A stretch of DNA of 29,239 bases from a virus: IMG/VR virus record IMGVR_UViG_3300048996_000110, positions 1 to 29,239 of that record; one strand, 5' to 3'. Position numbers and translations under genes: made by a program. The notes under the pieces are model-generated. The model saw only the letters and a program-made list of their open reading frames with translations, was not told where the DNA came from and made no database searches. Below are positions 4,456-26,851 of this stretch, one piece after another. Within the stretch, counting starts at the first letter, position 1. Each line of letters begins with the position of its first letter.

Positions 4456-4458
4456 CCA

Positions 4459-9047: not shown

Positions 9048-9053
9048 CGGCCC

Positions 9054-9446: not shown

Positions 9447-9449
9447 TGC

Positions 9450-13633: not shown

Positions 13634-14785
13634 TTAAGTTGCATCGGATGGTTTCACGCGCGGAACGCTGAGGTCATAGACCTTCATCATCTGCTCGGTC
13701 AGGCCGGCGGCGTCCTGCTTCTCGGCGCCGGTGCCGGCGGTGTCGGTGATGCCCTTACGCTTGAGGTCGTGCAGGCTGAAGCGCTGGGCTTCGGTGATCA
13801 CTTCCTCGTCAATGGCCAGGTGGATCAATCGCTGCCAGGCGCTGTCCAGGCCGGACTTCGATAGCGGCTCGCCGTCTTCGGAGATGAACACCACGCGGTT
13901 CTCCGCGTGTAACTGGTCCGGCTGGCGGCGGCGCTTGATGACGCCGGCGCGATAGGCCAGCGCGGCGTCCCACGCCGCCTGCAGGCGCGGATGCCATTGG
14001 ACCAGGTTGTTGCGACTGCCCTTGCGGCGATCGGTGCGCAGGCCTTCAGAGTCGCCCTGTGCTTCGACGAGCGTGTTGGTCTCGATCCCGCGCAGGCGGC
14101 ACAGGTAGCCGATCTCGGCCACCATCCACAGGTATGGGGGTACTGAGCCTTTGGAGTGGGCCGTACGGGCGCCCCGTTCGCGCGCCAGGCCGATCACTGC
14201 GTCGTACACCGCCGGCGGTGGCAGGCGCCGCCGCTTGCGTTCCTTGGCCTGCTCAATGCCCTTGGCTGGGTTGTGTTTGATGCCCAGGTGTGGGCCGGCC
14301 CATTTGAACGTACGGCGCAGGTAGCGCAGCACATGGTTCGCCTTCGACGGGTGGCCTTGCTTGACGATCTTCTCGTGGATCCGCTGGACATGCGGCTGGC
14401 CAACACGCACTACGGCGATCGTGCCGAACTTGATACCGATCGAGGTTGGGAAATCTTCGACGATCTTGCGGCAGACCTTGTAGTCGCGCTTGGTGGCTGC
14501 GGAGAATTCCTTGAAGCGAGTGCTGTCGTGGAACTTGGCCAGCATCCAGGCGATCGTGCCGTGCTCGGGGCCACCGTCGGCTTCTTCGACGTACTGGTGT
14601 AGCTCCGACAACCTGGCGCTGGGCCCGGCGATGGTCTCGCGGCTCGGCTTGCCTTCCTTGTCGACGAACATATACCAGCGGCCGCGGCCCGACGGATCCC
14701 AATAAACGCCCGCCGGCAGTGCGGCCTGGTCGATGTGAGCAGGGATCGAGGGATTGAATTTGCGAGAGCGGCCGCGTGGTGCCAT
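13634..14785 (-). CDS. int: Phage integrase, tyrosine recombinase
   Basis: A 383-residue site-specific recombinase. An N-terminal arm-binding-like part (residues about 1-75) and a core-binding SAM-like part (75-175) precede the catalytic domain. Probable catalytic residues are R232 (CRLRGIE), H339 with K342/R343 (LHDLKRKG) and the nucleophile Y370 (MMKVYDLS). The HDLK form instead of HxLR is seen in some phage integrases. The ATG at 14785 follows the excisionase-like gene by 3 bases, and the gene is last in the leftward early operon, pointing into attP. It should recombine the tRNA-Lys core with the host tRNA-Lys gene. Confidence 0.93.
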   Translation of the reverse strand: MAPRGRSRKFNPSIPAHIDQAALPAGVYWDPSGRGRWYMFVDKEGKPSRETIAGPSARLSELHQYVEEADGGPEHGTIAWMLAKFHDSTRFKEFSAATKRDYKVCRKIVEDFPTSIGIKFGTIAVVRVGQPHVQRIHEKIVKQGHPSKANHVLRYLRRTFKWAGPHLGIKHNPAKGIEQAKERKRRRLPPPAVYDAVIGLARERGARTAHSKGSVPPYLWMVAEIGYLCRLRGIETNTLVEAQGDSEGLRTDRRKGSRNNLVQWHPRLQAAWDAALAYRAGVIKRRRQPDQLHAENRVVFISEDGEPLSKSGLDSAWQRLIHLAIDEEVITEAQRFSLHDLKRKGITDTAGTGAEKQDAAGLTEQMMKVYDLSVPRVKPSDAT

Positions 14786-14788
14786 GGC

Positions 14789-14998
14789 TCAGATTAGCTC
14801 CGGCGGGTACTCGCCGCCATCTTCGTTCGCCGCCGGCAGGCCGAGGGCGCGATGCAACGCGGCCAGGGTGGTCCACACGCCGCCCCGGCAACCTTTGACC
14901 GGGATGCCATTGGACTCGTCCCAGCGCTCGACGTCGGCGCGGCGGTCGTAACCGCTGATCCTTTGTAGGTCGCTGAACTCGAGCACCGGGCCAATCAC
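14789..14998 (-). CDS. Excisionase-like DUF4224 protein
   Basis: A 69-residue protein with a GTG start that overlaps the upstream stop (GTGA). The segment EFSDLQRISGYDRRADVERW followed by GIPVKGCRGGVWTT matches the pattern of DUF4224 proteins, which are small winged-helix-like proteins typically encoded directly upstream of phage integrases. A directionality-factor (Xis) role is inferred from position and size. Read-through from the longer upstream frame was rejected because that part is antisense to the 66-residue gene's frame and has no domain. Confidence 0.6.
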   Translation of the reverse strand: MIGPVLEFSDLQRISGYDRRADVERWDESNGIPVKGCRGGVWTTLAALHRALGLPAANEDGGEYPPELI

Positions 14999-15195
14999 TG
15001 GGCCGCCTTCGCCGCCTTCTTGGCCTGGCGAATCCGCCGGCGCTGCTCGTTCCGCGCGAAGTGCAGCGCGGACTGTTCCAACTTCGTGCTGAAGGCGAGC
15101 TCGGTGATCACCTGGCCTAATTTCACATCGTCCAGATTGCGGATGGCTTCCCGAATCAGATCTGGCTTCTTGGCAGGAGCGCCCGCGATCTTCAT
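14995..15195 (-). CDS. Small basic phage protein, unknown
   Basis: A 66-residue protein, MKIAGAPAKKPDLIREAIRN at the start and a Lys/Arg/Ala-rich helical C-terminus (about residues 45-66). Its ATG overlaps the stop of the ParB-like gene upstream (ATGA) and its stop overlaps the GTG of the excisionase-like gene, so it is translationally coupled on both sides. No family recognised. Confidence 0.6.
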   Translation of the reverse strand: MKIAGAPAKKPDLIREAIRNLDDVKLGQVITELAFSTKLEQSALHFARNEQRRRIRQAKKAAKAAQ

Positions 15196-16073
15196 GAGCT
15201 TCTCGCCGACGGTGACGGCCCAGTTGCCGCACCATCGATTGCGGCCAGCAATAGCGCAACGGATGACCGGAACCGTTTGCGATCGCCGGCCGGGACAGCC
15301 TTGAGGGCGGCGCGGAAGTCGCTTTGCTGATAATCCAGTACTCGCTCGATCTCCGCTGCTACGCGAACAACGAAGCGGCTGGTGCTGGCCTTGATGTCAC
15401 GTGCTCTCCGCTGGATCGGCGTCCCGGTGGCTTCTGCGGCCAAGCGCTTGGCATGCTGGGTACGTGCGCCAACCGGGTAACGCAACAGAGCGCGATAAAT
15501 GTTTTTCTGCTTATCGGCAGGCAGCGTGGCCAGAACGATCGCTTCGGCAAAGCGCAGGCGCTTGTCATCAGCGACGTCAGGATGTAGAAGAAGCTGTAGG
15601 TCGCCGGAGAGCTGCTGCAACTGCAGGTATTGATAAACCCAAGCTTCGGACTTGCCGATCGATTCGACGAGCTCCTTCACTGCTTGGCCGCGAGACATTC
15701 CGGCTTCGACCGCCGCCTCCACTTGGTACTGCACGGCCGCCGAGATTTCCAAATGCGTGTGCCCTTCACGCATGAAGTTGCTGGCCAGCGACAGCAAGTG
15801 TTGGTCGGCATGACGCGCCAGTTCGCGTTCTTCTATGTCGACGCGAATAGTCGTGATGGTCGCCAACTTGCATGCGCGCCAACGACGCTCGCCGTCGATG
15901 ATCTCGTAGCGAGGTTTGGCGCCGGCGCCGCGCATGCGTACGGTAATGGGCTGGCGTTGCCCTACTTTTTTAATCGATGTGGCCAGCGTCTTGAGGGCCT
16001 GCTCGCTGAAGTGCGAGCGTGGCTGCTTTGGGTCAGGCCGGACATCGGTGACCGCTATGCGCGCGATGGTCAT
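15192..16073 (-). CDS. ParB/RepB-like DNA-binding protein (short)
   Basis: A 293-residue protein. Residues about 10-70 form a ParB N-terminal domain (RPDPKQPRSHF, then IIDGERRWRACKLA, the GERRxRA box). A second conserved block is LASNFMREGHTHLEISAAV and a helix-turn-helix segment is around IGKSEAWVYQYLQL. Its ATG overlaps the stop of the larger ParB-like gene upstream. There is no ParA gene in the window and the element has an integrase, so plasmid partition is unlikely. ParB-fold proteins in phages may be nucleases or regulators. The exact role is open. Confidence 0.8.
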   Translation of the reverse strand: MTIARIAVTDVRPDPKQPRSHFSEQALKTLATSIKKVGQRQPITVRMRGAGAKPRYEIIDGERRWRACKLATITTIRVDIEERELARHADQHLLSLASNFMREGHTHLEISAAVQYQVEAAVEAGMSRGQAVKELVESIGKSEAWVYQYLQLQQLSGDLQLLLHPDVADDKRLRFAEAIVLATLPADKQKNIYRALLRYPVGARTQHAKRLAAEATGTPIQRRARDIKASTSRFVVRVAAEIERVLDYQQSDFRAALKAVPAGDRKRFRSSVALLLAAIDGAATGPSPSARSS

Positions 16074-18106
16074 TTCTTGGCTGCCTTCTTCGGCGCCGGC
16101 TTTGCCGCCTTTTTGGCCGGCTTCTTTCGGTTCCCGCCTGGCCGCAGTGCCTTCGCTGGTTTTTTCGCGGGCTTGGCGGACTTCATTGGCTTGAACTTAG
16201 AAGGCGCCGCCTTCTTATCCGTAGATTTGGGCTGCACATTGGTCGGCTTCGTAGGCGATGCCGAGGCTGCCTTGTACTGCGAGCCGCGGAGTGGCTTCGG
16301 CAGCCAGCCCGTGCCGGCTAGTTTCTTTCCGGTCTCGGCGATCGCCCCATCTTTTTTGAGTACGAGGATGGCATCTCCCTCGACCTTCCCGGAGACTTCG
16401 GTAACGGCAGTGGCGAGCACGGCTTTGGGCACGAGCGTGAGGAAGGATTCCGGCGTGGGCTGCCACCACTTCGTCATGTCGACGCCGAACTGGTCGGCCA
16501 TGGCTGCGTTGCGGTCGCCATAGCCGTCGTACGTCAGCGCGATGGCCAGCGCCAGCAATTCCAGGCGCTTGGCCTCCGTCAGCTTACCGATCCAAGCGAA
16601 TATCTCAGAGGCCTTGCCGGGCAGACCGGACTTCTTCCAGCCATCGAGTCGCGCACCGAGCGCTTTGCGCGCCGGTGATTTGCCGACGTCACCGAACTTA
16701 CTGTCGATTAGGCTTCGCGCTTCGTCGTGGCGGTTTGTCGGACGCAAATGCAACGCCGATTCCGCCACGCTGTTGGTCATCACATCGCCGACCAGCTGCG
16801 CGATGAGCAGCAACATGGCTTGGCTTGGATCTGCGGCGATGTGCTCACGGATAGCGGCGGCCCGGTGCATTTCCAGACGGTTCACCATGTCCTGGCTGAG
16901 GGTTGCTTTCTTCGGTTTGTCACCGTCCTTCTTGGCGTTGGTGTCTTTGCCGGCGCGCTGACCAGGCCGAAGACGACCGCGTTCGATCTTCAAGCCGTGG
17001 TACTGATCGATGTAGATCAACACGCCTGTCTTAGCTTTGACGTTGTCGGGCCAGATCTCCGTGCTGTCACGCAGCTGCTGGCGTTTCTCGTACAGCGCAT
17101 CCTGCTCGGCGCCTAACACGCCTTCGTCATCGTCGCTATCGTCGCGATCCATTTCCTGGCGGATTGCCTTGAGCCTGGCATCGATCGCGTCGACGCGAGC
17201 CTGCTCGGCATCCGTCAGCGATCGGCGCTTTGGCTGATTGCCGCTATGCCCGTATTTGGACTGCTCGGAATAGTCGAGGACCAGGTGCGAATCCACCCAG
17301 GACCAGCCTGCCTGTCGTTCGACTTCGGCAGTCGCCTCGAGCTTGTCGAGTGCGAGCTTGTCCAGTAGCGCGGCATCGCCGAAGTAGACATCATCGGAGA
17401 ACATGTCACGCCGCACCGGTCCGCCGGCGGCTTGGTATGTGTCGGCGCCGACGAACTTCACCAACGGATTCTCTGGCCCGATTTCCTTCTGGGTGATGCG
17501 CTTACGGATCTCGCCGGCGCGGCGTGCCCAATCATCCTTCACGCCAAACCACGCCTTGTTCTGCGCCTTGCGATCGTCGGTCAGCGCCAGCGCCTGCAGC
17601 TGATCGAGCTTCATGCCGCCGTCCCGGAAAATCTTCAGCAGGGGCGGATCGACATTAGCCAGCTTCAAGCTGCGCGAAACAACGATCTCGGCCACGCCGA
17701 AATGTGCGGCGACCTCGGCGCGTGACTTGTTGGCATCGGCCATCGCCTTGAACGCATCGAACTCGTCGGCCACCGAGAGGCGCGTACGGATGAGGTTTTC
17801 CGCGGCACTGGCTTCCACGGCATCGCCGTTGGACACGACGCGACAGTCCACCAACAAGTCCGGCGCAACCTGCTTGCGCTCGGCAAGCAGCTGCAGGCCA
17901 GCCAGGCGTGTGCCGCCGGCGATGACCTCGAAGGAACCGTCTCCCGCGGAAGATGGCTCAACGGTGAGATTCTGCAAAAGCCGGTGGGCTTGCAGCGATG
18001 CGGCCATTGCTTCGACCGCTTCGGGGTCTCGCTGCCTGCGTGTATTACGCGGGGAGAGGCTCAGCTTCGAAAGCGGGACCTGGATGATGGCGGTTTGATC
18101 GTTCAT
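16070..18106 (-). CDS. Large ParB-like protein with Lys/Ala-rich tail
   Basis: A 678-residue protein. I use the ATG at 18106 with GAGGA upstream. The extra 96 residues of the longer frame are antisense to the RT and were rejected. Residues about 1-80 are a ParB-type domain (SPRNTRRQRDPEAVEAMAAS, then VIAGGTRLAGLQLL), with AENLIRTRLSVADEF and a helix-turn-helix (RAEVAAHFGVAEIVVSRSL) after it. The middle is charged and helical. The last ~60 residues are histone-H1-like, full of Lys, Ala and Pro (PAKKAAKPAPKKAAKK), suggesting non-specific DNA binding. It resembles plasmid-type ParB proteins but lacks a ParA partner here. Confidence 0.8.
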   Translation of the reverse strand: MNDQTAIIQVPLSKLSLSPRNTRRQRDPEAVEAMAASLQAHRLLQNLTVEPSSAGDGSFEVIAGGTRLAGLQLLAERKQVAPDLLVDCRVVSNGDAVEASAAENLIRTRLSVADEFDAFKAMADANKSRAEVAAHFGVAEIVVSRSLKLANVDPPLLKIFRDGGMKLDQLQALALTDDRKAQNKAWFGVKDDWARRAGEIRKRITQKEIGPENPLVKFVGADTYQAAGGPVRRDMFSDDVYFGDAALLDKLALDKLEATAEVERQAGWSWVDSHLVLDYSEQSKYGHSGNQPKRRSLTDAEQARVDAIDARLKAIRQEMDRDDSDDDEGVLGAEQDALYEKRQQLRDSTEIWPDNVKAKTGVLIYIDQYHGLKIERGRLRPGQRAGKDTNAKKDGDKPKKATLSQDMVNRLEMHRAAAIREHIAADPSQAMLLLIAQLVGDVMTNSVAESALHLRPTNRHDEARSLIDSKFGDVGKSPARKALGARLDGWKKSGLPGKASEIFAWIGKLTEAKRLELLALAIALTYDGYGDRNAAMADQFGVDMTKWWQPTPESFLTLVPKAVLATAVTEVSGKVEGDAILVLKKDGAIAETGKKLAGTGWLPKPLRGSQYKAASASPTKPTNVQPKSTDKKAAPSKFKPMKSAKPAKKPAKALRPGGNRKKPAKKAAKPAPKKAAKK

Positions 18107-18116
18107 GGTTTCCTCG

Positions 18117-19430
18117 TCAGTGATGGGTGGAGCGATGAGCGGCATCGATCCAGGGAAAGCGCGTCCGCAGCGATTGCTGCAGGCGGTAGCTGTTGGCGTG
18201 GCGAAAATGGCCTTCGTAGCTGGCCAGGACGGACTGCAGGCACCGGCGCTGGTCAGCCGTGGCGCGGACACGGCCGTGGTGGACGTGCTCGCCTTCCCAG
18301 CTGGCCAGCGCAGCGTTGAAGTGGGCGACCACGCGCCGGCGGACCAGCGTGTGGCTGGGGCGCACCACATAGCCCAGAAAGTCAATGCCATCACCCAGCC
18401 GGTGCAGACGGATGTCTGGCTTCAGCGATAGGCGCAGGCGATCGCGCAGGAAACTGACGATCTGATCCTGCCAGCGCAGCAGCTGCGCCCGGTCGTGGTG
18501 GACCAGCACGAAGTCGTCGACGTAGCGCAGGTACCGCTTGGCGCGCAGCGTGTGCTTGGCGAACTGATCGAGTGCGTCCAGGTACACGTTTGCGAAGAAT
18601 TGCGAGGACAGGTTGCCGATCGGCAGACCGCAGCCGGGGGCCGCGTTGGCCAGGCGCTTGTGCGGCGGCACCTGGGCCAACTCGTCAGGCGTGGCGCGCA
18701 CGTCGGCGCCGTTGCGCAGCGGATCGTGGCGCAGCAGTGCATGGGTCACGCGCTGTGCGTGCGGATCCAGCTGGTGGCGCAGCATGCGCGCCTTGAGCAT
18801 CGCCCACAATGTCGGCCGGTGGATGCTGTTGAAGAAGTTGTGGATGTCCAACTGCAGGTACCAGCCGTCTGGCTGCCCGCTGTTGATCTGTCGCACGAAC
18901 TGCTGAAGGCGCCTTACCGCGGCGTGGCTACCCTTGCCAACGCGGTTGGCATAGCTGTCGTGGATGAAGGTCGGCTCGTATAGCGCCTCCAGCTGCGGCA
19001 CCAGCCAGTGGTGCACCACGCGATCGGCGAAGTCCGGCGCGTGGATCTCCCGCGCCTTAGGCCGGATCGCGATGAAGCAGGTCGAGCGGCGCGGCGCCCA
19101 GGTGCCGGCCTGGATCTGCGCCTGCAGCGTGAGCAGCCCAGAACTCCAGCGGCTGTCGAAGCGCAGCTGGTTGTGACTCGGCACCTTCTGCCGGCGGGCG
19201 CGCCGCCAGGCCTCGTACAGCGATCTCAGCGGCACGCCCGCTGCTGGTGCATCCTGACACTCACCGACCCGGCGAACCGCCAACGCGAAACCGTCGTTGT
19301 TGCGGTGGTTGTTGTTGACGTTGCCGTTGTTGAAATTGACGTTCCACGCGGACGCCGACGAACCGGCTACCGCCTCCCTGCGCACTTGCGACATAGCCGG
19401 CCAGCCAAACGGGTAGGAAGGCGTCGTCAT
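18117..19430 (-). CDS. DGR reverse transcriptase
   Basis: An open frame of 437 residues whose ATG overlaps the avd stop (ATGA). The catalytic RT has LQLDIHNFFNS (residues 192-202, first catalytic Asp 195), GLPIGNLSSQFFANVYL (268-284, the Ser-Gln variant typical of DGR and group-II-like RTs) and LRYVDDFVLV (301-310, catalytic YVDD), followed by a short thumb. The RT proper starts near residue 66, where a GTG at 19235 is the only likely internal start (372 aa). The first ~58 residues are translated TR sequence. The product should copy TR RNA with errors at adenines and install the copy in the two VRs. Which start is used is unresolved. Confidence 0.93.
   Translation of the reverse strand: MTTPSYPFGWPAMSQVRREAVAGSSASAWNVNFNNGNVNNNHRNNDGFALAVRRVGECQDAPAAGVPLRSLYEAWRRARRQKVPSHNQLRFDSRWSSGLLTLQAQIQAGTWAPRRSTCFIAIRPKAREIHAPDFADRVVHHWLVPQLEALYEPTFIHDSYANRVGKGSHAAVRRLQQFVRQINSGQPDGWYLQLDIHNFFNSIHRPTLWAMLKARMLRHQLDPHAQRVTHALLRHDPLRNGADVRATPDELAQVPPHKRLANAAPGCGLPIGNLSSQFFANVYLDALDQFAKHTLRAKRYLRYVDDFVLVHHDRAQLLRWQDQIVSFLRDRLRLSLKPDIRLHRLGDGIDFLGYVVRPSHTLVRRRVVAHFNAALASWEGEHVHHGRVRATADQRRCLQSVLASYEGHFRHANSYRLQQSLRTRFPWIDAAHRSTHH
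19263..19373 (-). repeat. TR: DGR template repeat (TR)
   Basis: A 111-base repeat between avd and the RT core, read on the minus strand. It holds nine AAC codons, one AAT and one CAC where the VRs vary, giving the translated pattern WNVNFNNGNVNNNHRNND. It aligns without gaps to both VRs. Every difference lies at a TR adenine. At its 3' end (TR ends GGGTCGGT-GAG, VRs end GGGTCGGT-CAG) the repeats diverge, as expected for an IMH versus IMH* boundary. The invariant 3' part is GC-rich. Confidence 0.95.
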
Positions 19431-19864
19431 GGGTTGGCCCCCGTGGAGGCGGCGCAGGTACTCAGTGTCTGGGCACGCTGTGCGACGGCGCTATGGCCTT
19501 GCACACTCTGGCCCTTGGGATGCTGATGGTGCTTACGCCAGCCGCCCGCCTGCTTACCCAGATCGGTAATCAGGCGGACCAGATGCTCGAACTGGCGGAA
19601 GCTTGCGGTGGCATTCAAGAGCTTGGCCACCTGCAGGCGACGCTGTAGCTTGTCGATGGCCCAGACCAACTGCTCCACCCATCGCCGCTGATGCACGCGA
19701 TCGCGCCAGGCACGATCGGCGAGCTCGTAGACCGCCATCGCCTGGGTGCGAAGATCCGCTCCGATGTGATTGCGGTGATACGCAGCGAATCGACGCACTG
19801 CCTGCTCGATCTCTACGACCAGGCGCTCGGCTGCTTTGACGATGGGTGGTAGCTGGTAGGCCAT
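19427..19864 (-). CDS. avd: Avd-like DGR accessory protein
   Basis: A 145-residue helical basic protein starting MAYQLPPIVKAAERLVVEIE. Predicted four-helix bundle segments cover residues about 5-25, 35-60, 60-85 and 90-110, with an Arg/Trp/Gln-rich second half. This matches the Avd / 23S-intervening-sequence-like family that forms a pentameric barrel, binds RNA and partners the DGR reverse transcriptase. I use the ATG at 19864: residues upstream in the longer frame are antisense to the small gene next door. It lies directly between the targets and TR/RT, the classical avd position. The C-terminal ~35 residues are low complexity. Confidence 0.85.
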   Translation of the reverse strand: MAYQLPPIVKAAERLVVEIEQAVRRFAAYHRNHIGADLRTQAMAVYELADRAWRDRVHQRRWVEQLVWAIDKLQRRLQVAKLLNATASFRQFEHLVRLITDLGKQAGGWRKHHQHPKGQSVQGHSAVAQRAQTLSTCAASTGANP

Positions 19865-19869
19865 GGCGA

Positions 19870-20124
19870 TCAGCCGCGATAGCTGTCGGAGGGAGCGTCC
19901 TTCGACGGACCGCCGGTGCGTGCCGGACTCAGTTGCTCGGTCACGCCACCATCGACCACCTCCAACTGCTGGTGATCGATGTACTCGCCTTCGGGCAGCT
20001 TGCCATCGTTGATCGGCTGTTTTATGCAGTACTGCACGCAACCGTTGAGGTATTCGACACGCGCGGTCGCGATGCCGACGACACCGGTGACCACGTCACG
20101 CACCTTGTTTCCTAGCTGAATCAT
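19870..20124 (-). CDS. Small conserved-looking DGR-cassette protein
   Basis: An 84-residue protein with a good AGGAG site before the ATG at 20124. It starts MIQLGNKVRDVVTGVVGIAT and continues VEYLNGCVQYCI, a pattern of short beta strands reminiscent of small SH3/KOW-like barrels and of small proteins I have seen in phage genomes. The function is unknown. It sits between the second target gene and avd, 5 bases before avd. Whether it takes part in mutagenic homing or is just co-transcribed is open. Confidence 0.75.
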   Translation of the reverse strand: MIQLGNKVRDVVTGVVGIATARVEYLNGCVQYCIKQPINDGKLPEGEYIDHQQLEVVDGGVTEQLSPARTGGPSKDAPSDSYRG

Positions 20125-20156
20125 CTCGTTCTCCTGTGGTGAATCAAAAGGGCGAA

Positions 20157-20582
20157 TTACTGACCGACCCGGCGAACCGCCAACGCGAAACCGTCGTAGT
20201 CGCGGTGGCCGCTGCCGACGTAGCCGCCGTTGAAATAGACGCCCCACGCGGACGCCGACGAACCGGCCACCGCCGTCGTCGTCCAGTACCAGTCGTCCTT
20301 GATGTCGCGGAAGTAGTCGGTGTTGATCGCCGGTGACCTGCGCGTGCGGTCTACCAGAAGCTGCAGCTGCTCGACCGTCGGCAAGGACCAGTCGTCGTAG
20401 CCCCCGACCGTGCAGGCCTTGGCCGCGGCCTCGCATTCCTTCTGCGGGACGTCCTCGGCGACGTTGGTGGCGGTGAACATCAGGCCGTGGTCGGGCAGCA
20501 GCACCGCGACGTGCTGCTCCGTCGAATCGTCCGGCAGCATTTCTCGATTGGCGGCGACCTTGATCAGTTTGAGGTTCGACAT
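20157..20582 (-). CDS. DGR target protein B (DUF1566-like, ends in VR2)
   Basis: A 141-residue protein starting at the ATG at 20582, preceded by ACAGGAGA. The longer frame runs through the other target's VR and was rejected. It shows the DUF1566/Lcl C-terminal pattern (a C-type-lectin-like fold): GYDDWSLPTVEQLQLLVD, then YWTTTAVAGSSASAW, then GFALAVRRVG. The last ~38 residues are VR2. The ten AAY codons of the template here read G, Y, N, G, Y, G, S, G, D, Y. There is no signal peptide or membrane segment. By family knowledge the variable residues form the ligand-binding face. The ligand is unknown. Confidence 0.88.
   Translation of the reverse strand: MSNLKLIKVAANREMLPDDSTEQHVAVLLPDHGLMFTATNVAEDVPQKECEAAAKACTVGGYDDWSLPTVEQLQLLVDRTRRSPAINTDYFRDIKDDWYWTTTAVAGSSASAWGVYFNGGYVGSGHRDYDGFALAVRRVGQ
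20163..20273 (-). repeat. VR: DGR variable repeat VR2
   Basis: A 111-base copy of TR at the 3' end of target gene B. It has 14 substitutions relative to TR (13 in the variable codons and one silent GTA to GTG near the 5' end), all at TR adenines on the coding strand, and no indels. Confidence 0.95.
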
Positions 20583-20614
20583 TTCGTTATCTCCTGTGGG
20601 AATCAAAGGGCTAA

Positions 20615-21232
20615 TTACTGACCGACCCGGCGAACCGCCAACGCGAAACCGTCGTAGTCGCGGGGGGTGCCGCTGACGTAGCCGTAGCCGAAATGGACGA
20701 ACCACGCGGACGCCGACGAACCGGCTACCGCAGTGCTGGTCCAGTGCCAACGGGGTTTCACTTTCGGGAAGAGACTGATGTCGATCGCCGGGTCATAGCG
20801 GGTGTCGTCGACCAAGCCGGCAAGTTCAGCGCGGGTCGCCAGGCGCCAGTCGTCGTAGCCGAGCAGGCGCAACATCTTGCACCGCTCGATGCAGTGTTCC
20901 TGGGCGATGCCATCGTCGGCATCGTCTTGGCCACCGAGCGATTCGACGGCCCACATCAAGCTAGTCGCATGGTCGATCGTCGCGACGTGGTCGGTGCGCG
21001 TATCCGTTCCGGAAACGCGCGATCCATCGGCCAAAAGCTTGGTGAATCCTGGGTGCTTGGTTTCGATGAAAGCGGGGATCTGCTCGCCATCGACTGGACC
21101 GACCATCAGGCCTTGTGCAGTGACGTCGATCCCAATGGTCTTGGGCTTGTAGGTCTCGACGTGGATGGTTTCCTCGTGGGATTTGCCATCAATATCGGTG
21201 CGGCGAGTGATGCGGACGCTGAAGTCGGACAT
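20615..21232 (-). CDS. DGR target protein A (DUF1566-like, ends in VR1)
   Basis: A 205-residue protein with AGGAGA before the ATG at 21232. The N-terminal ~80 residues are beta-rich and specific to this target. Residues about 85-205 form the DUF1566/Lcl-type domain: ATSLMWAVESLGG, GYDDWRLATRAELAGLVDD, PRWHWTSTAVAGSSASAW and GFALAVRRVG. The last ~38 residues are VR1, where the ten template AAY codons read F, H, G, Y, Y, S, G, T, D, Y. A template His is Pro. It is followed by target B after 32 bases. No signal peptide or transmembrane segment is seen, so the place of action is unclear. Confidence 0.88.
   Translation of the reverse strand: MSDFSVRITRRTDIDGKSHEETIHVETYKPKTIGIDVTAQGLMVGPVDGEQIPAFIETKHPGFTKLLADGSRVSGTDTRTDHVATIDHATSLMWAVESLGGQDDADDGIAQEHCIERCKMLRLLGYDDWRLATRAELAGLVDDTRYDPAIDISLFPKVKPRWHWTSTAVAGSSASAWFVHFGYGYVSGTPRDYDGFALAVRRVGQ
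20621..20731 (-). repeat. VR: DGR variable repeat VR1
   Basis: A 111-base copy of TR at the 3' end of target gene A. It has 14 substitutions relative to TR, all at TR adenines (including CAC to CCC), and no indels. Confidence 0.95.
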
Positions 21233-21266
21233 GGTGTTCTCCTGGTGACGCGTGGGTTAGGGTGAG

Positions 21267-21875
21267 TTAGGCGGCTTTGTCGACAAGCGTGGTTGCGCAC
21301 TCTTCGAATGCCATGCGCGGCGATGCCACAACACCGATCGCGCCGCGCGGCCAGGTCGGACAACCCAGCACGACGAAGTGATGGCCGACCTTGGGTTCGA
21401 GCTCGCCGACTTCGTTCTGCAGCATCGGCGTGTAAGTGATGGATACGCCGTTGTTCTTGTAGGCCGCGGCACACACCTCGACCGGCAGGTAGTAGCGGTC
21501 ACCGGGCAACGGCAAGAGCCGCGGATTGCGTCCGAACGGCGCGACCACGTCAGCCCAGGACGACGGGCCGTATCGCACATCGCCGAGCGTCGAGAGCGTT
21601 CGGCGCACGGACTCGTAGGCTTCCAGGGCGTCACTGTCGGGCCGCACGCGCGAGATCAGGTCGTAGGCGTGCGCGGCGTTGCGGGTTTTCTGCTCGATGG
21701 CGCGGGTCAGTGTGTCGACCATCGATTGCGCGAGCTCGAGCTCGGTGCGATCGCGCTTCCACTCTTCGGCGCGGCGGCTGTACTCGGCCGCATTCACGGT
21801 GAGCCCGCTCGCGGCCTCGGCCTGTGCTACGGCGTCGAGGAAATCCGGGCCGCTGAACTGCTGGTAGTCGGACAT
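21267..21875 (-). CDS. Hypothetical early-operon protein
   Basis: A 202-residue protein. The ATG at 21875 has GGAGA upstream. The longer frame upstream is antisense to the next gene and was rejected. Residues about 10-100 look helical and charged (SRRAEEWKRDRTELELAQSM). The second half is beta-rich with Pro/Gly, including GDRYYLPVEVCAAAYKNNGV and VVASPRMAFEECATTLVDKA. No family recognised. It lies immediately upstream of the DGR targets in the same operon. Confidence 0.7.
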   Translation of the reverse strand: MSDYQQFSGPDFLDAVAQAEAASGLTVNAAEYSRRAEEWKRDRTELELAQSMVDTLTRAIEQKTRNAAHAYDLISRVRPDSDALEAYESVRRTLSTLGDVRYGPSSWADVVAPFGRNPRLLPLPGDRYYLPVEVCAAAYKNNGVSITYTPMLQNEVGELEPKVGHHFVVLGCPTWPRGAIGVVASPRMAFEECATTLVDKAA

Positions 21876-21886
21876 CGTCTTCTCCT

Positions 21887-22519
21887 TCAGACACCGCGTT
21901 TGGCGCTGATTCGGTATTGGGTGGCGCGGCCTTTGCCGCGTTGTACTTGGTGCCGGTCGTGGTCGTGCTGCAGAGGTTGCGAAGACTCCCCGTCGCGTAA
22001 CTTCTGGATGCGGCCGCCGCGCCGTAAGAAGGCGTCGATATCGGCGGCCAGCTTTCTGCTGGCGTGACGCTTCGGTGATTCGTGGTCGACAACCGTCGCC
22101 AGTGGCGCGCTGAAGTTCGTCGTCTGCGATCGGCTTGTGGCCTTGGCCGGAGTCAAGACAGTCGGCAAGGTCTTCTTGACCGCGGCCGGCGCGGGCTTGA
22201 CTGGCACGGCTACCGCTTTCGGGCGCGCATGTTTCGCCGCCGCCGCCTTGAGTGCGTCGGTTCTGGATGCCTGCTTGCCGGGGCGGGCAGGCGTGGTGCC
22301 GATCCGCCAACGCACGCCGCCCTGACCGGCGCCTTCGCGGACCACGGATCCGCCGCGATGCAGCGTGCCGAGCGTGGCGCACATGAGCGTGATGCAGCCG
22401 CCGGGCTCAACTGCGTCCAGGATCTCGCGTGCCGTCTTGGATGACTGCTGCTGCTTCAGGTGCTCTCGGATGCGCGCCGCCCGACCTGTGCGTTTTGCGC
22501 CATTTAGCTGCGCGCTCAT
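21887..22519 (-). CDS. Hypothetical protein with winged-helix-like N-terminus
   Basis: A 210-residue basic protein. Residues about 15-75 look like a small DNA-binding winged helix (REHLKQQQSSKTAREILDAV, then LGTLHRGGSVVREG). A long Ala/Pro/Lys linker (about 75-140) is followed by a basic C-terminal part (ASRKLAADIDAFLRRGGRIQ) ending in Arg/Lys. Its ATG overlaps the upstream stop. A regulatory or DNA-binding role is inferred. Confidence 0.65.
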   Translation of the reverse strand: MSAQLNGAKRTGRAARIREHLKQQQSSKTAREILDAVEPGGCITLMCATLGTLHRGGSVVREGAGQGGVRWRIGTTPARPGKQASRTDALKAAAAKHARPKAVAVPVKPAPAAVKKTLPTVLTPAKATSRSQTTNFSAPLATVVDHESPKRHASRKLAADIDAFLRRGGRIQKLRDGESSQPLQHDHDRHQVQRGKGRATQYRISAKRGV

Positions 22520-23127
22520 GCGTCACATCCCTTGCCGATGTCGCCAGGCTTGCCATCAGCAGTGAACACACGCCAGGGCACCCAGCCGCGCTGCGGGCAG
22601 TGAAAGCCCCAATCGCGGAGCGTCGGGCCGAACAGAAACAGCGTCCAGCACGGTGCGATGGGATCGCACTTGCTCACCAGCGGTGAGCCGTTGTCGACCA
22701 CCTGGCGTAGCAACTCAATGCGGTGGACGTGATCCAGCGACATGAAGCGCAGCGTGCCGGCGTCGAATTGCCGCCACTTATGAATGCCGCCTTTGTCGAT
22801 GGTGTGCTCGACGTATCCGCCGAACAGCATGAAGCTCACTGCCCATGATGGGTGGTCGTGCAAGGCCCGGTCATCGTCGTCGCGCAGGAATTGGTGCAGG
22901 TACAGGTTCGGCAGTAGTCGTGCGCACCTGACCACCAGACGCTGCCACCTGGTGCGCTGCATTTCCGGGACATGCTGGTACCACCCGCGCCATGGTGTGA
23001 CGTACCAGCGATTGAGGTAGGCGCCCTCGGGATTGTCCGCGCCGACGATGAAGTCGGGCGGACGCTTAAACGCAATGCGCTCGATGAAGTAGCCGAACCA
23101 ATTGGCGGCGGTGCGTGGGAATTTCAT
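22516..23127 (-). CDS. Cupin-like phage protein, unknown
   Basis: A 203-residue protein with aromatic and His-rich blocks: PNLYLHQFLRDDDDRALHDH, then SFMLFGGYVEHT and MSLDHVHRIELL. The spaced His residues and beta pattern suggest a cupin-like double-stranded beta helix with a metal site (inference). It ends WGFHCPQRGWVPWRVF. Similar uncharacterised proteins occur in phage early regions. The ATG overlaps the stop of a 35-residue gene upstream. Confidence 0.65.
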   Translation of the reverse strand: MKFPRTAANWFGYFIERIAFKRPPDFIVGADNPEGAYLNRWYVTPWRGWYQHVPEMQRTRWQRLVVRCARLLPNLYLHQFLRDDDDRALHDHPSWAVSFMLFGGYVEHTIDKGGIHKWRQFDAGTLRFMSLDHVHRIELLRQVVDNGSPLVSKCDPIAPCWTLFLFGPTLRDWGFHCPQRGWVPWRVFTADGKPGDIGKGCDA

Positions 23128-23231
23128 GCGCGCTCTCCCATCGCGAGCAACTCACGGTTGGTGAGCTCGGTCCGGTGCAGCGAGGCGGCCAGGGAGGACT
23201 TGAGCGAGAAGATCCGCAGGATGGATTTCAC
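23124..23231 (-). CDS. Tiny coupled gene, 35 residues
   Basis: GTG at 23231 overlaps the upstream stop (GTGA) and its TGA overlaps the next ATG (ATGA), so the frame exactly fills the gap between two genes. The product is 35 residues, MKSILRIFSLKSSLAASLHR followed by TELTNRELLAMGERA: amphipathic and basic. Exact coupling at both ends is the main evidence. No family. Confidence 0.5.
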   Translation of the reverse strand: MKSILRIFSLKSSLAASLHRTELTNRELLAMGERA

Positions 23232-23509
23232 GACTGCTGCGCTACGGTGGCGCGGGCGAGGGCGAGGGCAGCATCTAATGCAGCGCATGCATTGCGCCCT
23301 GCTTCGCCAGCTTCGTCGCCTGACGTGATCCCACGAAAGTTCTCTGCCGCCTCGATCAACTCCGCGAAAGGTGCGCGCTCAGCTGCGATCGCAGAGCGCA
23401 ACTGACCGATTAGACGCCCGGCAGCAGCGCGGTCCGGATACCCGATGCGAAATACGCCATGCAGCTCAACCTTGGATACGATCTCGTCAACCAACACACG
23501 GGCGCTCAC
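23228..23509 (-). CDS. Small early protein, unknown
   Basis: A 93-residue protein. I use the GTG at 23509, which overlaps the upstream stop (GTGA). The longer frame is antisense to the neighbour. It starts MSARVLVDEIVSKVELHGVF and is mostly helical and Ala-rich (residues 45-93). No family recognised. It is translationally coupled to both neighbours. Confidence 0.6.
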   Translation of the reverse strand: MSARVLVDEIVSKVELHGVFRIGYPDRAAAGRLIGQLRSAIAAERAPFAELIEAAENFRGITSGDEAGEAGRNACAALDAALALARATVAQQS

Positions 23510-23787
23510 GCCGCACCGTCCTTCGCCTGTTCGGCTTCGAGCAGCTGCGTGGCGATGGCGCGTCCTTCGTCCGTCAGGTCCGCGCGTGTCGTGCAGAGCG
23601 GCGCATCCAAGCGGACTAAGCCATCGCGCTCCAGGCTGTTGACGGTACGCTTGGTGAATACCGGGTCGGGTCTGGTGGCCGGGCAATAGAACCCGCCAGG
23701 CACGCGCGTCAGCGCGCCCGTTTCGTCGGCAAGCATGGCCAGGAGCGCTTGGCGCTGTTTCGGTGGAATGTCGTGTGCGTGTCGCAT
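23506..23787 (-). CDS. Small winged-helix-like protein
   Basis: A 93-residue protein, MRHAHDIPPKQRQALLAMLA at the start, then VFTKRTVNSLERDGLVRL and ADLTDEGRAIATQLLEAE. The helix-helix-strand order with a recognition-like helix (KRTVNSLERDGLV) and the LTDEGR end resembles MarR/winged-helix proteins. A DNA-binding role is plausible but unproven. It is the first gene after the internal terminator at 23802-23828. Confidence 0.65.
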   Translation of the reverse strand: MRHAHDIPPKQRQALLAMLADETGALTRVPGGFYCPATRPDPVFTKRTVNSLERDGLVRLDAPLCTTRADLTDEGRAIATQLLEAEQAKDGAA

Positions 23788-23801
23788 TAGAGCCTCGGCG
23801 G

Positions 23802-23828
23802 AAAAAACCCCAGCGAAGATCGCCGGGG
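23802..23828 (-). terminator. Strong intra-operon terminator on the PL transcript
   Basis: On the minus strand CCCCGGCGA pairs with TCGCTGGGG (9 pairs, one G-T) across a 3-base loop and is followed directly by six T residues. It lies in the 60-base gap between the third and fourth genes of the leftward operon. This is a textbook rho-independent terminator. Confidence 0.8.
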
Positions 23829-23847
23829 GATCAGGGAAGATGTCGGG

Positions 23848-24081
23848 TCAGGAAGTGGTGAGTGGCTGCCGCGCCCGAAGTTGATCGGCGCGATTGCGCC
23901 CCTCACGGATGGCCTGCAGCGTGTGACCAGGTGCGCGTAGCGCCCATGCGATTGCGGCGCGGATATTGCTGTCATCGCATCCTAGCTTTTGCGCGTAGGC
24001 GCGCACGGCTACGGCGACATCGGCGCTGTTCGAACGCGTTGCAGCCGCCGGCGGTGAGGTGGGTGTGGAAATCATCGGCAT
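23848..24081 (-). CDS. Small early protein, unknown
   Basis: A 77-residue protein with GGAGA before the ATG at 24081. The N-terminus is Ser/Thr/Pro/Ala-rich and residues about 22-65 are helical (VAVAVRAYAQKLGCDDSNIR, AAIAWALRAPGHTLQAIREG). No family recognised. It is the last gene before the internal terminator. Confidence 0.6.
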   Translation of the reverse strand: MPMISTPTSPPAAATRSNSADVAVAVRAYAQKLGCDDSNIRAAIAWALRAPGHTLQAIREGRNRADQLRARQPLTTS

Positions 24082-24092
24082 GGTCTTCTCCT

Positions 24093-24383
24093 TCAGGCCG
24101 CGGCGAGGAGCGAGCGTTCGGCGGCGACGCGCAGTCCGTGTAGGGACGCGAGCGGGACCAGGTCAGCAGGCGGGCCTTGCCACAGCCATTCGGCGACGCG
24201 CTTGGAATAGACCGGGCGCGTGGCCACGCCACAGCAGGCGCATTCGATGTGGAACTGGCGAGCGGGTTTGCCGAACAGGCGGTGGTCGACCTGTACTCGG
24301 CCGCGTGCTTCAACCAGGTGTGCGGTTCGTCCGCAAGCGGCGTGTACCAGCGGCTTCGATGGCGTGACGGGATGCATGATCAT
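24093..24383 (-). CDS. Small phage protein with possible Cys zinc site
   Basis: A 96-residue protein whose ATG overlaps the upstream stop. It contains HAACGRTAHLVEARGRVQVD and FHIECACCGVATRPVYSK. A single Cys and a CACC cluster about 30 residues apart could bind a metal (inference). The C-terminus is helical. No family recognised. Confidence 0.65.
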   Translation of the reverse strand: MIMHPVTPSKPLVHAACGRTAHLVEARGRVQVDHRLFGKPARQFHIECACCGVATRPVYSKRVAEWLWQGPPADLVPLASLHGLRVAAERSLLAAA

Positions 24384-24643
24384 TGCGGCCTGCTCCTGAG
24401 TTCGGAGCGGGCGGTGCGAGCGCGCCTGGTGGGCTCGAAGGTGGTGCCGGATCCGATGGGAAATGAAATGCCGGCATTGCTTGGCCAGTTGTTTACAGAA
24501 GGCGCGGTCGGAGCGCGCTCGTGCTTCGCGTTGCGTCGTTGAAGCCAGTCGATGCCCAGCCGCACGCCGACGATGGCGACGGTCGCTGCGATTAAGATGA
24601 TCGCGAGCAACTGGGCGGCTGAGAAATGCATCTGCTCAAACAT
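24380..24643 (-). CDS. Small single-pass membrane protein, first PL gene
   Basis: An 87-residue protein. I chose the ATG at 24643 after an AGGGAG site. Residues 13-33 (LLAIILIAATVAIVGVRLGI) form a clear membrane helix after a short N-terminus, followed by a basic cytoplasmic-type tail (LQRRNAKHERAP). It is the first gene of the leftward operon, about 100 bases after the PL start. The function is unknown. A superinfection-exclusion or host-takeover role would be a guess. Confidence 0.65.
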   Translation of the reverse strand: MFEQMHFSAAQLLAIILIAATVAIVGVRLGIDWLQRRNAKHERAPTAPSVNNWPSNAGISFPIGSGTTFEPTRRARTARSELRSRPQ

Positions 24644-24681
24644 CGGCGCGCTCCCTTGAAGAGAAGGGCGCCGGCGCGTCG

Positions 24682-24720
24682 AGCTGGTCAGGGGTAGGCC
24701 AGCTGGATGACCGCCGGTCA
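24682..24720 (-). promoter_or_regulatory. Two hairpins in the PL leader
   Basis: The untranslated leader of the leftward transcript holds AGCTGGCC-N7-GACCAGCT (24682-24704) and TGACC-GCC-GGTCA (24708-24720). They sit between the promoter and the first gene and could act in antitermination or leader control, but I see no match to a known nut site. Confidence 0.35.
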
Positions 24721-24748
24721 CCCGCCCCCGCGGAGGAGGCGAGCTAAC

Positions 24749-24764
24749 ATTAAGCCCGCTTAAT
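24749..24764. promoter_or_regulatory. Operator OL1 (perfect palindrome)
   Basis: ATTAAG-CCCG-CTTAAT, half-sites perfectly inverted, covering the -10 of PL. It is the best match to the operator consensus of this switch region. Confidence 0.7.
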
Positions 24765-24776
24765 TATTAATGTCAA
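24749..24776 (-). promoter_or_regulatory. Early leftward promoter PL
   Basis: On the minus strand a perfect TTGACA (-35, 24771-24776) and CTTAAT (-10, 24749-24754) are 16 bases apart. Both elements are covered by repressor operators. It faces the 19-gene leftward operon. Confidence 0.7.
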
Positions 24777-24787
24777 GCGCGCTTAAT
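24772..24787. promoter_or_regulatory. Operator OL2
   Basis: GTCAAG-CGCG-CTTAAT, the same N4 spacing with a diverged left half-site, overlapping the -35 of PL. Its centre is 23 bases from OL1, about two helical turns. Confidence 0.6.
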
Positions 24788-24795
24788 ATCACCGC

Positions 24796-24993
24796 AAGTC
24801 GGCTTGGCCTGGGGCGGCCCCAGCGGCAGCCTTGAGCGGTGGCCCGGACCGCCTGCCTTCGGGGCGGCCGCGCATCAGCGCGGCGCGACCGAGACGAGTA
24901 AAGAGGGTAGGGTGGGTTGCAGGCGGAAATACACGCCCATCGCGTGCAGGTGTCGCGTATTGCAAGCCGCAGGCGGGGCGCTGCGGCTTTTTA
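24796..24993 (+). ncRNA. Candidate structured plus-strand RNA
   Basis: This ~200-base gap has no credible gene but holds a run of hairpins on the plus strand: CTGGGG-CGG-CCCCAG (24809-24823), GCCGCGC-ATCA-GCGCGGC (24867-24884), CACGC-N5-GCGTG (24932-24946) and a terminator (24964-24993). A -10-like TAATAT lies at 24784-24789 next to OL2, but its -35 is poor. A short regulatory RNA made divergently from PL, similar in layout to lambda oop, is possible. There is no known family match. Confidence 0.3.
24964..24993 (+). terminator. Rho-independent terminator, plus strand
   Basis: AAGCCGCAG pairs perfectly with CTGCGGCTT around an 8-base loop and runs into five T residues on the plus strand. On the minus strand the same hairpin lies 7 bases after the 116-residue gene but has only two T residues, so it may also weakly end the repressor operon. 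Confidence 0.7.
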
Positions 24994-25000
24994 GATGCAC

Positions 25001-25351
25001 TCAGCGAGCCGGCGGGGCTTCTGCGGAATCGCAACCGTTCTGAATGCAGTCCTCCAGATGTCTCATGCGATCGAGTAGTTCCTCGACATCAGCATCTGGC
25101 ATTTGCGAAATGCTGGGAAAGCGCCGACTGTCCAGAAAGTGCTGCACTTCGTTTGGCCAGTTGTAACGCATGGCAATGCGATTGATCGTGCGAACAGCGA
25201 TATCCCTGGGGCCTTGGTCGGCGGCTGGTCTGGTGTTGAAGTCGTAGGCTTCGTAGGCTCGCCAAGCATCTTCGTTAGCCGCGAGCGCGGACGCTGGCCG
25301 CGGAATTGCCTCGCTCATCAGTTGACGCAAGCGTGAGACTTTGTCGTGCAT
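25001..25351 (-). CDS. Unknown protein downstream of repressor
   Basis: A 116-residue acidic helical protein with AGGGG before its ATG. It starts MHDKVSRLRQLMSEAIPRPA and has NRIAMRYNWPNEVQHFLDSR and ADVEELLDRMRHLEDCI. It lies 18 bases after the CI-like repressor gene and is probably expressed with it in the lysogen, so it may have a lysogeny, immunity or exclusion role (inference from position). No family recognised. Confidence 0.65.
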   Translation of the reverse strand: MHDKVSRLRQLMSEAIPRPASALAANEDAWRAYEAYDFNTRPAADQGPRDIAVRTINRIAMRYNWPNEVQHFLDSRRFPSISQMPDADVEELLDRMRHLEDCIQNGCDSAEAPPAR

Positions 25352-25369
25352 GTTGAAACCCCTGTGCGG

Positions 25370-25819
25370 TTATGCAACCGCTGCTTGGACGAAGCGCAGC
25401 ACCTTCGCCCGTGGCATTCCCTCCTCAAGTAAGTCGTAAGCGAGCTTCGCCGCTTCGGCCTGCTTGTTGGGTGGCAATACGTGATCTCGCTTGGCGAGCT
25501 CTTCGGTTACCAGCTGGAGGGCGATGGTCAGGTGTTCGGATTGCACAGGGTGAGACGCGTAGAAGGATGCGTCCTGGGCCACGCGCCAGGCCGGCATTAC
25601 GGCTTCATCGCCGAACAGCAGCGTTCGCGGATCCAGCCGCACTTCGTCAGCGATCCTGAATAGCTGAATCGCCTTAATGTGATCGGTCAGGACGTTGTCG
25701 TTTAGCCAGTTGTGGATGGTGGCCGGCGTAGTGCCGGCCGCCGACGCCAACTTGGGCGGGGTGAGGCCGGCGGCCAACATGGCCGCCTCCAGGCGGGTAC
25801 CGAGCGTGGGCTGAGACAT
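25370..25819 (-). CDS. CI-like phage repressor (XRE helix-turn-helix)
   Basis: A 149-residue protein. Residues about 8-60 form an XRE helix-turn-helix: LEAAMLAAGLTPPKLASAAG with the recognition helix in TPATIHNWLND. The rest (70-149) is helical. There is no LexA/S24 peptidase domain with Ser/Lys catalytic residues, so induction by RecA-stimulated self-cleavage is not expected. The gene is divergent from the Cro-like gene and its own start codon is covered by an operator, which suggests autoregulation. I see no good ribosome site before the ATG. It is the natural candidate to bind the ATTAAG-N4-CTTAAT operators. Confidence 0.85.
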   Translation of the reverse strand: MSQPTLGTRLEAAMLAAGLTPPKLASAAGTTPATIHNWLNDNVLTDHIKAIQLFRIADEVRLDPRTLLFGDEAVMPAWRVAQDASFYASHPVQSEHLTIALQLVTEELAKRDHVLPPNKQAEAAKLAYDLLEEGMPRAKVLRFVQAAVA

Positions 25820-25833
25820 AAAGCCAGCTTAAT
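25818..25833. promoter_or_regulatory. Operator at the repressor start
   Basis: ATAAAG-CCAG-CTTAAT, one mismatch from the consensus, overlapping the repressor ATG. Confidence 0.5.
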
Positions 25834-25863
25834 CCGTGAGTTAGTAAAAGGGCTTGATGCGTG

Positions 25864-25879
25864 ATACAGCGGGCTTGAC
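25864..25879. promoter_or_regulatory. Weak operator at the PR -35
   Basis: ATACAG-CGGG-CTTGAC, a diverged site with the same N4 layout, 22 bases from the perfect PR operator and overlapping the -35 of PR. A still weaker site (AGTAAA-AGGG-CTTGAT) lies at 25843-25858, so sites recur about every 21-25 bases. Confidence 0.4.
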
Positions 25880-25903
25880 CAAAACATTAAGACCACTTAA
25901 TGT
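25875..25903 (+). promoter_or_regulatory. Early rightward promoter PR
   Basis: TTGACC (-35, 25875-25880) and TAATGT (-10, 25898-25903) with 17-base spacing drive the Cro-like gene. The predicted start (about 25910) is only a few bases before the ATG at 25914, and there is no ribosome site, so the message is nearly leaderless. Confidence 0.6.
25886..25901. promoter_or_regulatory. Operator OR (perfect palindrome)
   Basis: ATTAAG-ACCA-CTTAAT inside the longer perfect inverted repeat ACATTAAG-N4-CTTAATGT (25884-25903). It covers the PR spacer and -10. Confidence 0.7.
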
Positions 25904-25913
25904 TCATCCGGCC

Positions 25914-26117
25914 ATGAGCACCCCTCTAACGAAAGCCCAGATCAAGACCCGGCTTGGGATCAAGACCGGCGTCGACCTTGCCCTTTGGTTTGAAGTCACG
26001 CCGGCGGCGATCAGCCAGTGGCACGACGACCAACCGATTCCGGAAGCGCGGTGGCTGTACGCGCAGTTGAAGCGGCCCGACCTGTTCGATGCGGCTGCCA
26101 AGAGCGAGGCCGCCTAG
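25914..26117 (+). CDS. Cro/YdaS-like DNA-binding protein
   Basis: A 67-residue protein. I use the ATG at 25914; the longer frame would include the promoter. It reads MSTPLTKAQIKTRLGIKTGV, then LALWFEVTPAAISQWHDDQP, with a helix-turn-helix around residues 20-42 of the Cro/YdaS kind (ALxxWFxVTxxAISQW). It is divergent from the CI-like repressor and first in the rightward operon. It probably competes for the same operators. Confidence 0.8.
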   Translation: MSTPLTKAQIKTRLGIKTGVDLALWFEVTPAAISQWHDDQPIPEARWLYAQLKRPDLFDAAAKSEAA

Positions 26118-26270
26118 ATGACAGTAATCAGGCAATGCCGGCTGAAAGAACACAGCCAGCACGACGCCAATGCCTTTGTCGGCATCGTAGGCGCGCAGCG
26201 CGGTGTAGCGGATCTGTTGGGTAGCAAACATGCGATCCATTCTCCAGCGAACCACGGAGGCTCCGCATGA
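26118..26270 (+). CDS. Possible small early gene, 50 residues
   Basis: An ATG directly after the Cro-like stop opens a 50-residue frame, MTVIRQCRLKEHSQHDANAF followed by VGIVGAQRGVADLLG, whose TGA overlaps the ATG of the next gene. Exact packing supports it. It lacks a recognised domain and the opposite strand also has an open frame, so confidence is modest. Confidence 0.35.
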   Translation: MTVIRQCRLKEHSQHDANAFVGIVGAQRGVADLLGSKHAIHSPANHGGSA

Positions 26271-26851
26271 AGCGCGGGTCTCATTTTCTGCCGCCGCGTC
26301 AGACTATCGTCTATGGCTACACGCGCCGCATGCTCGATGAAACAGCTACAAACGCGAACTCTTTCGCGCTGGTGGTCGCAGAACGCTATTTGGAGTCGGT
26401 TGCACCGGACGTGCGCCAGGTGAAGTTGAAGCTCGGTGAAGGTGATGCCCTGGCGCGAGCGATGAAGGACAACGGCCAAGTGCTGCGCCGGTATATGGAT
26501 GGCACCGTCAAGGTGCTCCCGGCCGATTTGGAGGACGCGTGGGTGACTGCGTTGCCAGAACCCTATCGATCTGACTGTGAACGCGACCTTGCGCGTCGCC
26601 GCGGACTGCTGTGCGTGCAGGTGGTCGATTCGACCGCCGATGCCGTCGTCAGCGTCGGGAAACTGACCAGCGATTTCAGCGAACTGCTGAATGCGATCGC
26701 GCCGGCGCTAGCCGATGGTCGTCTCGACGCAGCCGACGTCGTCCATGCGCGTCGGATCATCAACGAATCCGACGACATGATCAGCGGCGTGTTCGCCATA
26801 CGCCGAGCGTTGCAGGAACTGGTCAGTCAATCGGAGAACGCCAGTGCCTGA
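26267..26851 (+). CDS. Early regulatory protein, CII/YdaT-position
   Basis: A 194-residue protein with GGAGG before the ATG. Residues about 55-95 include LGEGDALARAMKDNGQVLRR and resemble the small DNA-binding domains of phage regulatory (CII-like) proteins. The C-terminal half is helical (VGKLTSDFSELLNAIAPALA). Position directly after a Cro/YdaS-like gene and before replication genes fits a CII- or YdaT-type regulator, but I cannot name the family with certainty. Confidence 0.6.
   Translation: MKRGSHFLPPRQTIVYGYTRRMLDETATNANSFALVVAERYLESVAPDVRQVKLKLGEGDALARAMKDNGQVLRRYMDGTVKVLPADLEDAWVTALPEPYRSDCERDLARRRGLLCVQVVDSTADAVVSVGKLTSDFSELLNAIAPALADGRLDAADVVHARRIINESDDMISGVFAIRRALQELVSQSENASA

Follow-up and report, generated by a model that had tools for sequence, protein, structure and literature searches.

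A phage diversity-generating retroelement whose template repeat lies within the reading frame of its reverse transcriptase

The IMG/VR virus record IMGVR_UViG_3300048996_000110 is a phage contig of 29,239 nucleotides, and its whole length is the window that we analysed. Its minus strand carries a diversity-generating retroelement (DGR) made up of two target genes, an avd gene, a reverse transcriptase (RT) gene, one template repeat (TR) and two variable repeats (VRs) (Table 1). An original prediction, made from the sequence alone, had described this DGR as complete. That stands for the cassette; the 29-kb contig itself is probably partial. The prediction had not noted that the whole TR lies within the RT reading frame, whose ATG at 19430 is 57 nt 5′ of the TR. 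We found no Rfam family in the window.

Table 1. Features of the retroelement and its target genes, with positions in the window
Feature	Position	Strand	Remarks
DGR reverse transcriptase frame, 437 aa	18117-19430	-	RVT_1, PHROG RT, DGR-clade tree, 8ub7
TR 3′ junction GAG (IMH*-like mark)	19260-19262	-	CAG in both VRs instead
TR	19263-19373	-	in frame within the RT open reading frame (ORF), same codon frame as the VRs
avd, 145 aa	19427-19864	-	shares ATGA, at its stop, with the RT start codon
Small conserved hairpin just 5′ of the RT start	19437-19450	-	3′ arm with Shine-Dalgarno-like GGGG/GAGG
83-aa ORF	19870-20121	-	PHROG 16275, function unknown; lies between avd and target B
Target B, 141-aa Lcl_C/DUF1566, C-type-lectin-like	20157-20582	-	Pfam PF07603 8.7e-19
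VR1	20163-20273	-	encodes the C terminus of target B; 14 mismatches, none outside TR adenines
Target A, 205-aa Lcl_C/DUF1566	20615-21232	-	Pfam PF07603 2.7e-21
VR2	20621-20731	-	encodes the C terminus of target A; 14 mismatches, none outside TR adenines

The three repeats, which the original prediction had placed correctly to the nucleotide, are each 111 nt long, align without a gap and all lie on the minus strand. It had also counted 14 differences in each VR, all at adenines of the TR, and indeed 28 of 28 mismatches fall there. Only 23 of the 111 TR positions are adenines, and the remaining 88 positions are without mismatch in either VR. The changes are 11 A>G and 3 A>T in VR1 and 6 A>G, 5 A>T and 3 A>C in VR2. 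By our own arithmetic, the chance that all 28 mismatches would fall at adenines is about (23/111)^28, roughly 1e-19. When its adenines are left free, the TR pattern matches exactly three times in the window and never in 100 shuffles. Twenty of the adenines belong to ten AAY codons, the rest to GTA, CAC and GAC. The claim that the AAY codons cannot become stops survived a codon check: no adenine-substituted TR codon can yield one. The variable codons allow about 9e12 amino-acid combinations, and in the targets a stop codon follows directly 3′ of the VR junction.

Both targets belong to the Lcl_C/DUF1566 family; the PF07603 match of target B was obtained with a longer ORF (20157-20750) that contains it. 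The AlphaFold model of target A has a mean predicted local distance difference test (pLDDT) score of 86. Its best match in the PDB is the C-terminal domain of Legionella Lcl (8q4e, E 1.3e-3, probability 1.00), followed by C-type lectins. The targets had been described as DUF1566-like rather than the classical Mtd, which is right, but DUF1566 has already been reported as the most common named DGR target domain (PMC6642488). We propose that variation at the ten AAY codons changes residues on the surface of a C-type-lectin fold, and we infer that the targets bind something on a cell surface.

An Avd-like gene adjoining a YVDD-type RT gene was part of the original prediction, and profile searches confirm both. 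The RT matches Pfam RVT_1 (1e-14) and the PHROG reverse transcriptase family (4e-95). It carries IGNLSSQ, with SQ in motif 4, and YVDD in the YxDD motif, as do RTs of the DGR clade. Avd matches the PHROG family "Avd protein of DGR" at 3.2e-17, which identifies the accessory protein; its matches to NCBIfam DivGenRetAVD (1.9e-7) and Pfam bAvd (4e-4) stay below the curated cut-offs. An RT falling outside the DGR clade had been named as an observation that would speak against a DGR. In a tree with the RTs of BPP-1 and other DGRs and five group II intron RTs, the window RT groups with the DGR RTs, which a split with 100% bootstrap separates from the group II RTs; together with its close relatives it forms one clade, also with 100% support. 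By sequence and by fold, the best PDB matches are the DGR RT structures 8ub7-8ubf, which come from a DGR RT-Avd-RNA complex. The top fold matches of the RT model are 8ub7 (E 8e-23) and 8ubd (E 7e-21). We rejected a group II intron or retron/defense-associated RT (DRT) identity: NCBIfam gave only matches below cut-off, and the tree separates this RT from group II RTs. The RT frame consists of a 19-aa leader, the TR-encoded segment, a linker and the RT core, which begins at about residue 66 (position 19235). The AlphaFold model has a pLDDT of about 90 in the core and below 50 at residues 1-62.

For comparison, we fetched 80 IMG/VR and 80 GTDB loci. The named hosts of the closest loci are mainly Xanthomonadales (Stenotrophomonas, Xanthomonas, Pseudoxanthomonas and Rhodanobacter). 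Two VRs are present in most loci and three or four in some. Those readable targets that we inspected are Lcl_C-like, including remote ones 4-6 kb away. TR-VR mismatches were counted in loci with an RT at least 57% identical, giving 180 TR-VR pairs. VR differences at non-adenine template positions, the other observation named as contrary to a DGR, proved rare: 2589 of 2644 mismatches are at A. They divide into 1463 A>G, 824 A>T, 302 A>C and 55 others, 39 of which are G>C. This last class is consistent with a fixed GAG/CAG mark at the junction. The junction reads GT-GAG in 84 of 84 TRs and GT-CAG in 167 of 168 VRs, so that the two repeats have distinct 3′ ends of the kind known as initiation of mutagenic homing sites (IMH in the VR, IMH* in the TR).

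Homologous VRs were also compared between relatives with an identical TR. In 151 pairwise, non-independent comparisons, they differ at 2050 of 3486 adenine positions (59%) and at 6 of 11614 non-adenine positions (0.05%). The flanking 150 nt differ at 1734 of 22650 positions (7.7%). Since the VRs change almost only at adenines while their flanks drift, they must have been repeatedly overwritten from the TR in this lineage. These sequences show the signature of real, repeated retrohoming, that is, of past activity in the relatives.

We then considered the TR as part of the RT gene. The comparison rests on 77 distinct close relatives, defined as those with an in-frame ATG 44-72 nt before the TR. 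In 77 of 77 the avd stop and the RT ATG overlap as ATGA. From this ATG to the RT core the distance varies from 162 to 234 nt, with 20 different values, each divisible by three. All 77 have an open RT frame, and the other two frames are open in 55 and 3. Three relatives (L058, L062 and L070) have their TR in a different frame and yet keep the RT frame open. Close loci that lack the ATG at this distance were inspected one by one: L051 has ATGACG further upstream, and in L049, L061, L063 and L073 an ATG lies some 25 nt 5′ of the TR. Between the TR end and the RT core, no start codon is present in 58 of the 77. Four relatives (L079, L046, L033 and L089) have no ATG, GTG or TTG in the RT frame from the TR start to the RT core, and their RT must therefore start upstream of the TR. 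Parsimony changes in the leader number 174 at codon position 3 versus 112 and 113 at the other positions. The evidence favours RT initiation upstream of the TR. At the level of sequence, then, the window has its whole TR in the RT frame behind an upstream start, as in the ACA1 type and DiGReF group 3 discussed below. Of 54 DGR loci that are more distant, 12 have the TR wholly inside the stop-to-stop RT frame, 5 with an upstream ATG and none with ATGA. In this sample, the combination of a TR inside the RT frame with ATGA is specific to the lineage.

The small hairpin just 5′ of the RT start has 5 of 5 pairs in 55 of 59 distinct sequences, and its outer pair shows compensatory swaps from G-C to A-U. 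Its 3′ arm is a plausible candidate for a ribosome site. No long RNA structure was detected around the TR and the RT start, where folding energy is not below that of shuffles (z = 1.08). In the window, 28 nt separate the TR end from the RT core, all of it in open frame, and there is no non-coding structured spacer between TR and RT of the BPP-1 kind. Synonymous change (pS) is low through the leader, the TR and the next 10-20 codons or so; it is depressed to about codon 76-77 and has recovered by about codon 86. A long hidden spacer 3′ of the TR was considered and rejected, because the synonymous suppression ends soon after the TR.

Together, these data point to a phage-borne DGR in which the TR doubles as the 5′ coding sequence of the RT and ribosomes cross the template. 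We put the probability of this reading at about 0.88. Several points weigh against it. AlphaFold gives the TR-encoded RT extension (residues 1-62) no fold, and it is probably disordered. The leader and TR also change slowly at synonymous sites, so that constraint on the RNA explains part of the conservation of the leader. Most members, the window phage included, could start at an internal TTG or GTG, either within the TR or beyond it. Finally, no stem-loop or inverted repeat like that of BPP-1 was found above chance after the VRs, the best stem scoring no better than shuffles; a TAATTGGCC-T-rich motif is shared after the VRs instead. We do not treat the stem-loop as defining for DGRs in general, because it is reported not to be strictly required (PMC12875486).

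One alternative is an ordinary DGR whose frame is open through the TR only by coincidence. The RT would then be translated from an internal GTG or TTG close to the 3′ end of the TR, and the leader would be kept only as RNA, serving as a reverse-transcription stop or in TR-RNA structure. Leader pS among close pairs is 0.034, versus about 0.25-0.3 in the RT, which suits this explanation, as do the TTG or GTG codons near the TR 3′ end of most members and the predicted disorder of the extension. However, an incidental frame sits poorly with an ATGA overlap that is never missing in the 77 relatives, with 20 lengths that all keep the frame and with the compensated frames of three loci. It also leaves the four relatives devoid of a start codon from the TR on, and the Shine-Dalgarno-like arm before the ATG, without an explanation. 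We consider it unlikely.

A degenerate or inactive remnant, with repeats that are relics of past homing, is less probable still. The contig comes from a virus collection, and an exact scan of IMG/VR for the phage's own TR/VR block, with adenines free, gave 0 matches and no near-identical strain. But the RT is intact, with both YVDD and IGNLSSQ, and the VRs equal the TR exactly at non-adenine positions while flanks in relatives diverge by 7.7%; this identity requires repeated recent conversion in the lineage. Tandem duplication and drift of a lectin domain into three diverged copies with no retroelement would suit two paralogous targets lying side by side, but it is contradicted by the confinement of all 28 differences to TR adenines, a TR outside any lectin gene, the adjacent RT and Avd genes and the same pattern in about 90 loci, and its probability is negligible.

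The DGR would work as follows. By analogy with BPP-1, an Avd-RT complex would copy RNA of the TR region into complementary DNA (cDNA), placing random bases opposite adenines of the template. This cDNA would replace the matching end of either lectin-like target gene. GAG at the TR junction and CAG at the VR junction would mark donor and recipients. RT translation would start at the ATG overlapping the avd stop, behind the hairpin with its putative ribosome site, and would be coupled to that of avd. Ribosomes would read through the template, and the RT would receive a probably disordered, TR-encoded N-terminal tail. A more speculative extension, which we regard as possible but doubtful, is that one RNA is both the avd-RT message and the template. 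Ribosomes arriving by coupling from avd would have to cross the template, translation and reverse transcription would be in competition, which would by itself limit mutagenesis, and the priming element would need to be short or to sit inside coding sequence, in contrast to the BPP-1 spacer.

The phage is temperate. In the region 13634-27000, a CI-like repressor gene (25370-25819) and an integrase gene (13634-14785) enclose the DGR and both targets, which are on the minus strand, beside ParB-like genes and away from the tail genes (plus strand, 767-11273). The DGR of Burkholderia phage Magia likewise lies between RecT/regulator genes and an integrase gene. Encoded in this arm, small targets of the lectin-only type may not belong to the virion. 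Two consecutive ParB-like genes (15192-18107) are directly downstream of the RT gene, and the first of them begins immediately beyond the RT stop codon; they occur in only 4-7 of 91 close loci. The unrelated 83-aa ORF is not a constant part of the DGR: 4 of the 91 close loci have it, and its position varies. Elsewhere, a 1195-aa protein (4459-8046) matches PHROG 6128, of unknown function, over its full length (1377 bits); by position it is probably a tail-tip protein. A gene for a Dam-family adenine methyltransferase (11629-12420) lies between the tail module and the integrase gene. The protein encoded at 22516-23127 matches a PHROG annotated as cysteine dioxygenase (5e-42), and this stretch also matches so-named genes in Gordonia and Mycobacterium phages.

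As a DGR, the system adds one more well-supported case. It resembles that of BPP-1 (mtd-avd-TR-brt) in having the VR at the 3′ end of the target, avd, TR and RT in one direction, adenine-specific change and an RT of the DGR clade. In BPP-1, however, the TR comes directly after avd, and 144 nt separate TR and brt, versus 28 nt to the RT core here; its target is Mtd, and here there are two DUF1566 targets. The TR-brt spacer of BPP-1 folds, recruits bRT-Avd and primes cDNA synthesis (PMC12875486). A clade of about 90 phage and prophage loci that keeps its TR in the RT gene without a long non-coding spacer thus tests the generality of the BPP-1 spacer model of cDNA priming. The clade also suggests that the integrase/regulatory arm of a temperate phage, and not the neighbourhood of its tail genes, can house lectin-only targets. 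Multiple VRs, DUF1566 targets and a related host group are shared with the DGR of Stenotrophomonas sp. SKA14, for which six VRs, five of them in DUF1566 proteins, and two TRs are reported (PMC6642488); this contig has one TR and two VRs.

A TR inside the RT gene has precedents, and we rejected the idea that it is new. The TR was described as intergenic "in most cases" by Roux et al. (PMC8144416). In Pseudoalteromonas phages ACA1 and ACA2, the TR is described as translated into an N-terminal RT extension, an arrangement that the authors call uncommon (PMC10612066), and their annotation likewise has a 4-nt overlap of avd stop and RT start. These phages differ in a distant RT (32% identity), a P2-like genome and an anti-receptor target. 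A TR overlapping the RT 5′ end defines structural group 3 of DiGReF (PMC3521204), classed there by annotation only; here the frame is conserved over 77 distinct relatives. Magia and Pseudomonas phage VB_PaD_phPA-G have an Avd-like protein and an RT in the same order and a TR in an open RT frame, and Magia has a lectin-like target, but their RTs are about 40% identical to that of the window and no ATGA overlap with avd is annotated. Just 5′ of the TR, the open RT frames of both (Magia, L163, 4839-6122; VB_PaD_phPA-G, L173, 2773-4125) encode a common peptide like SAVSRLRNRLGDVD. These two phages hint at a second lineage with the TR inside the RT frame. Judged by its sequence and that of its relatives, the system in the window is a standard DGR and so belongs to a known kind; its layout, uncommon but already described, is here backed by comparative evidence.

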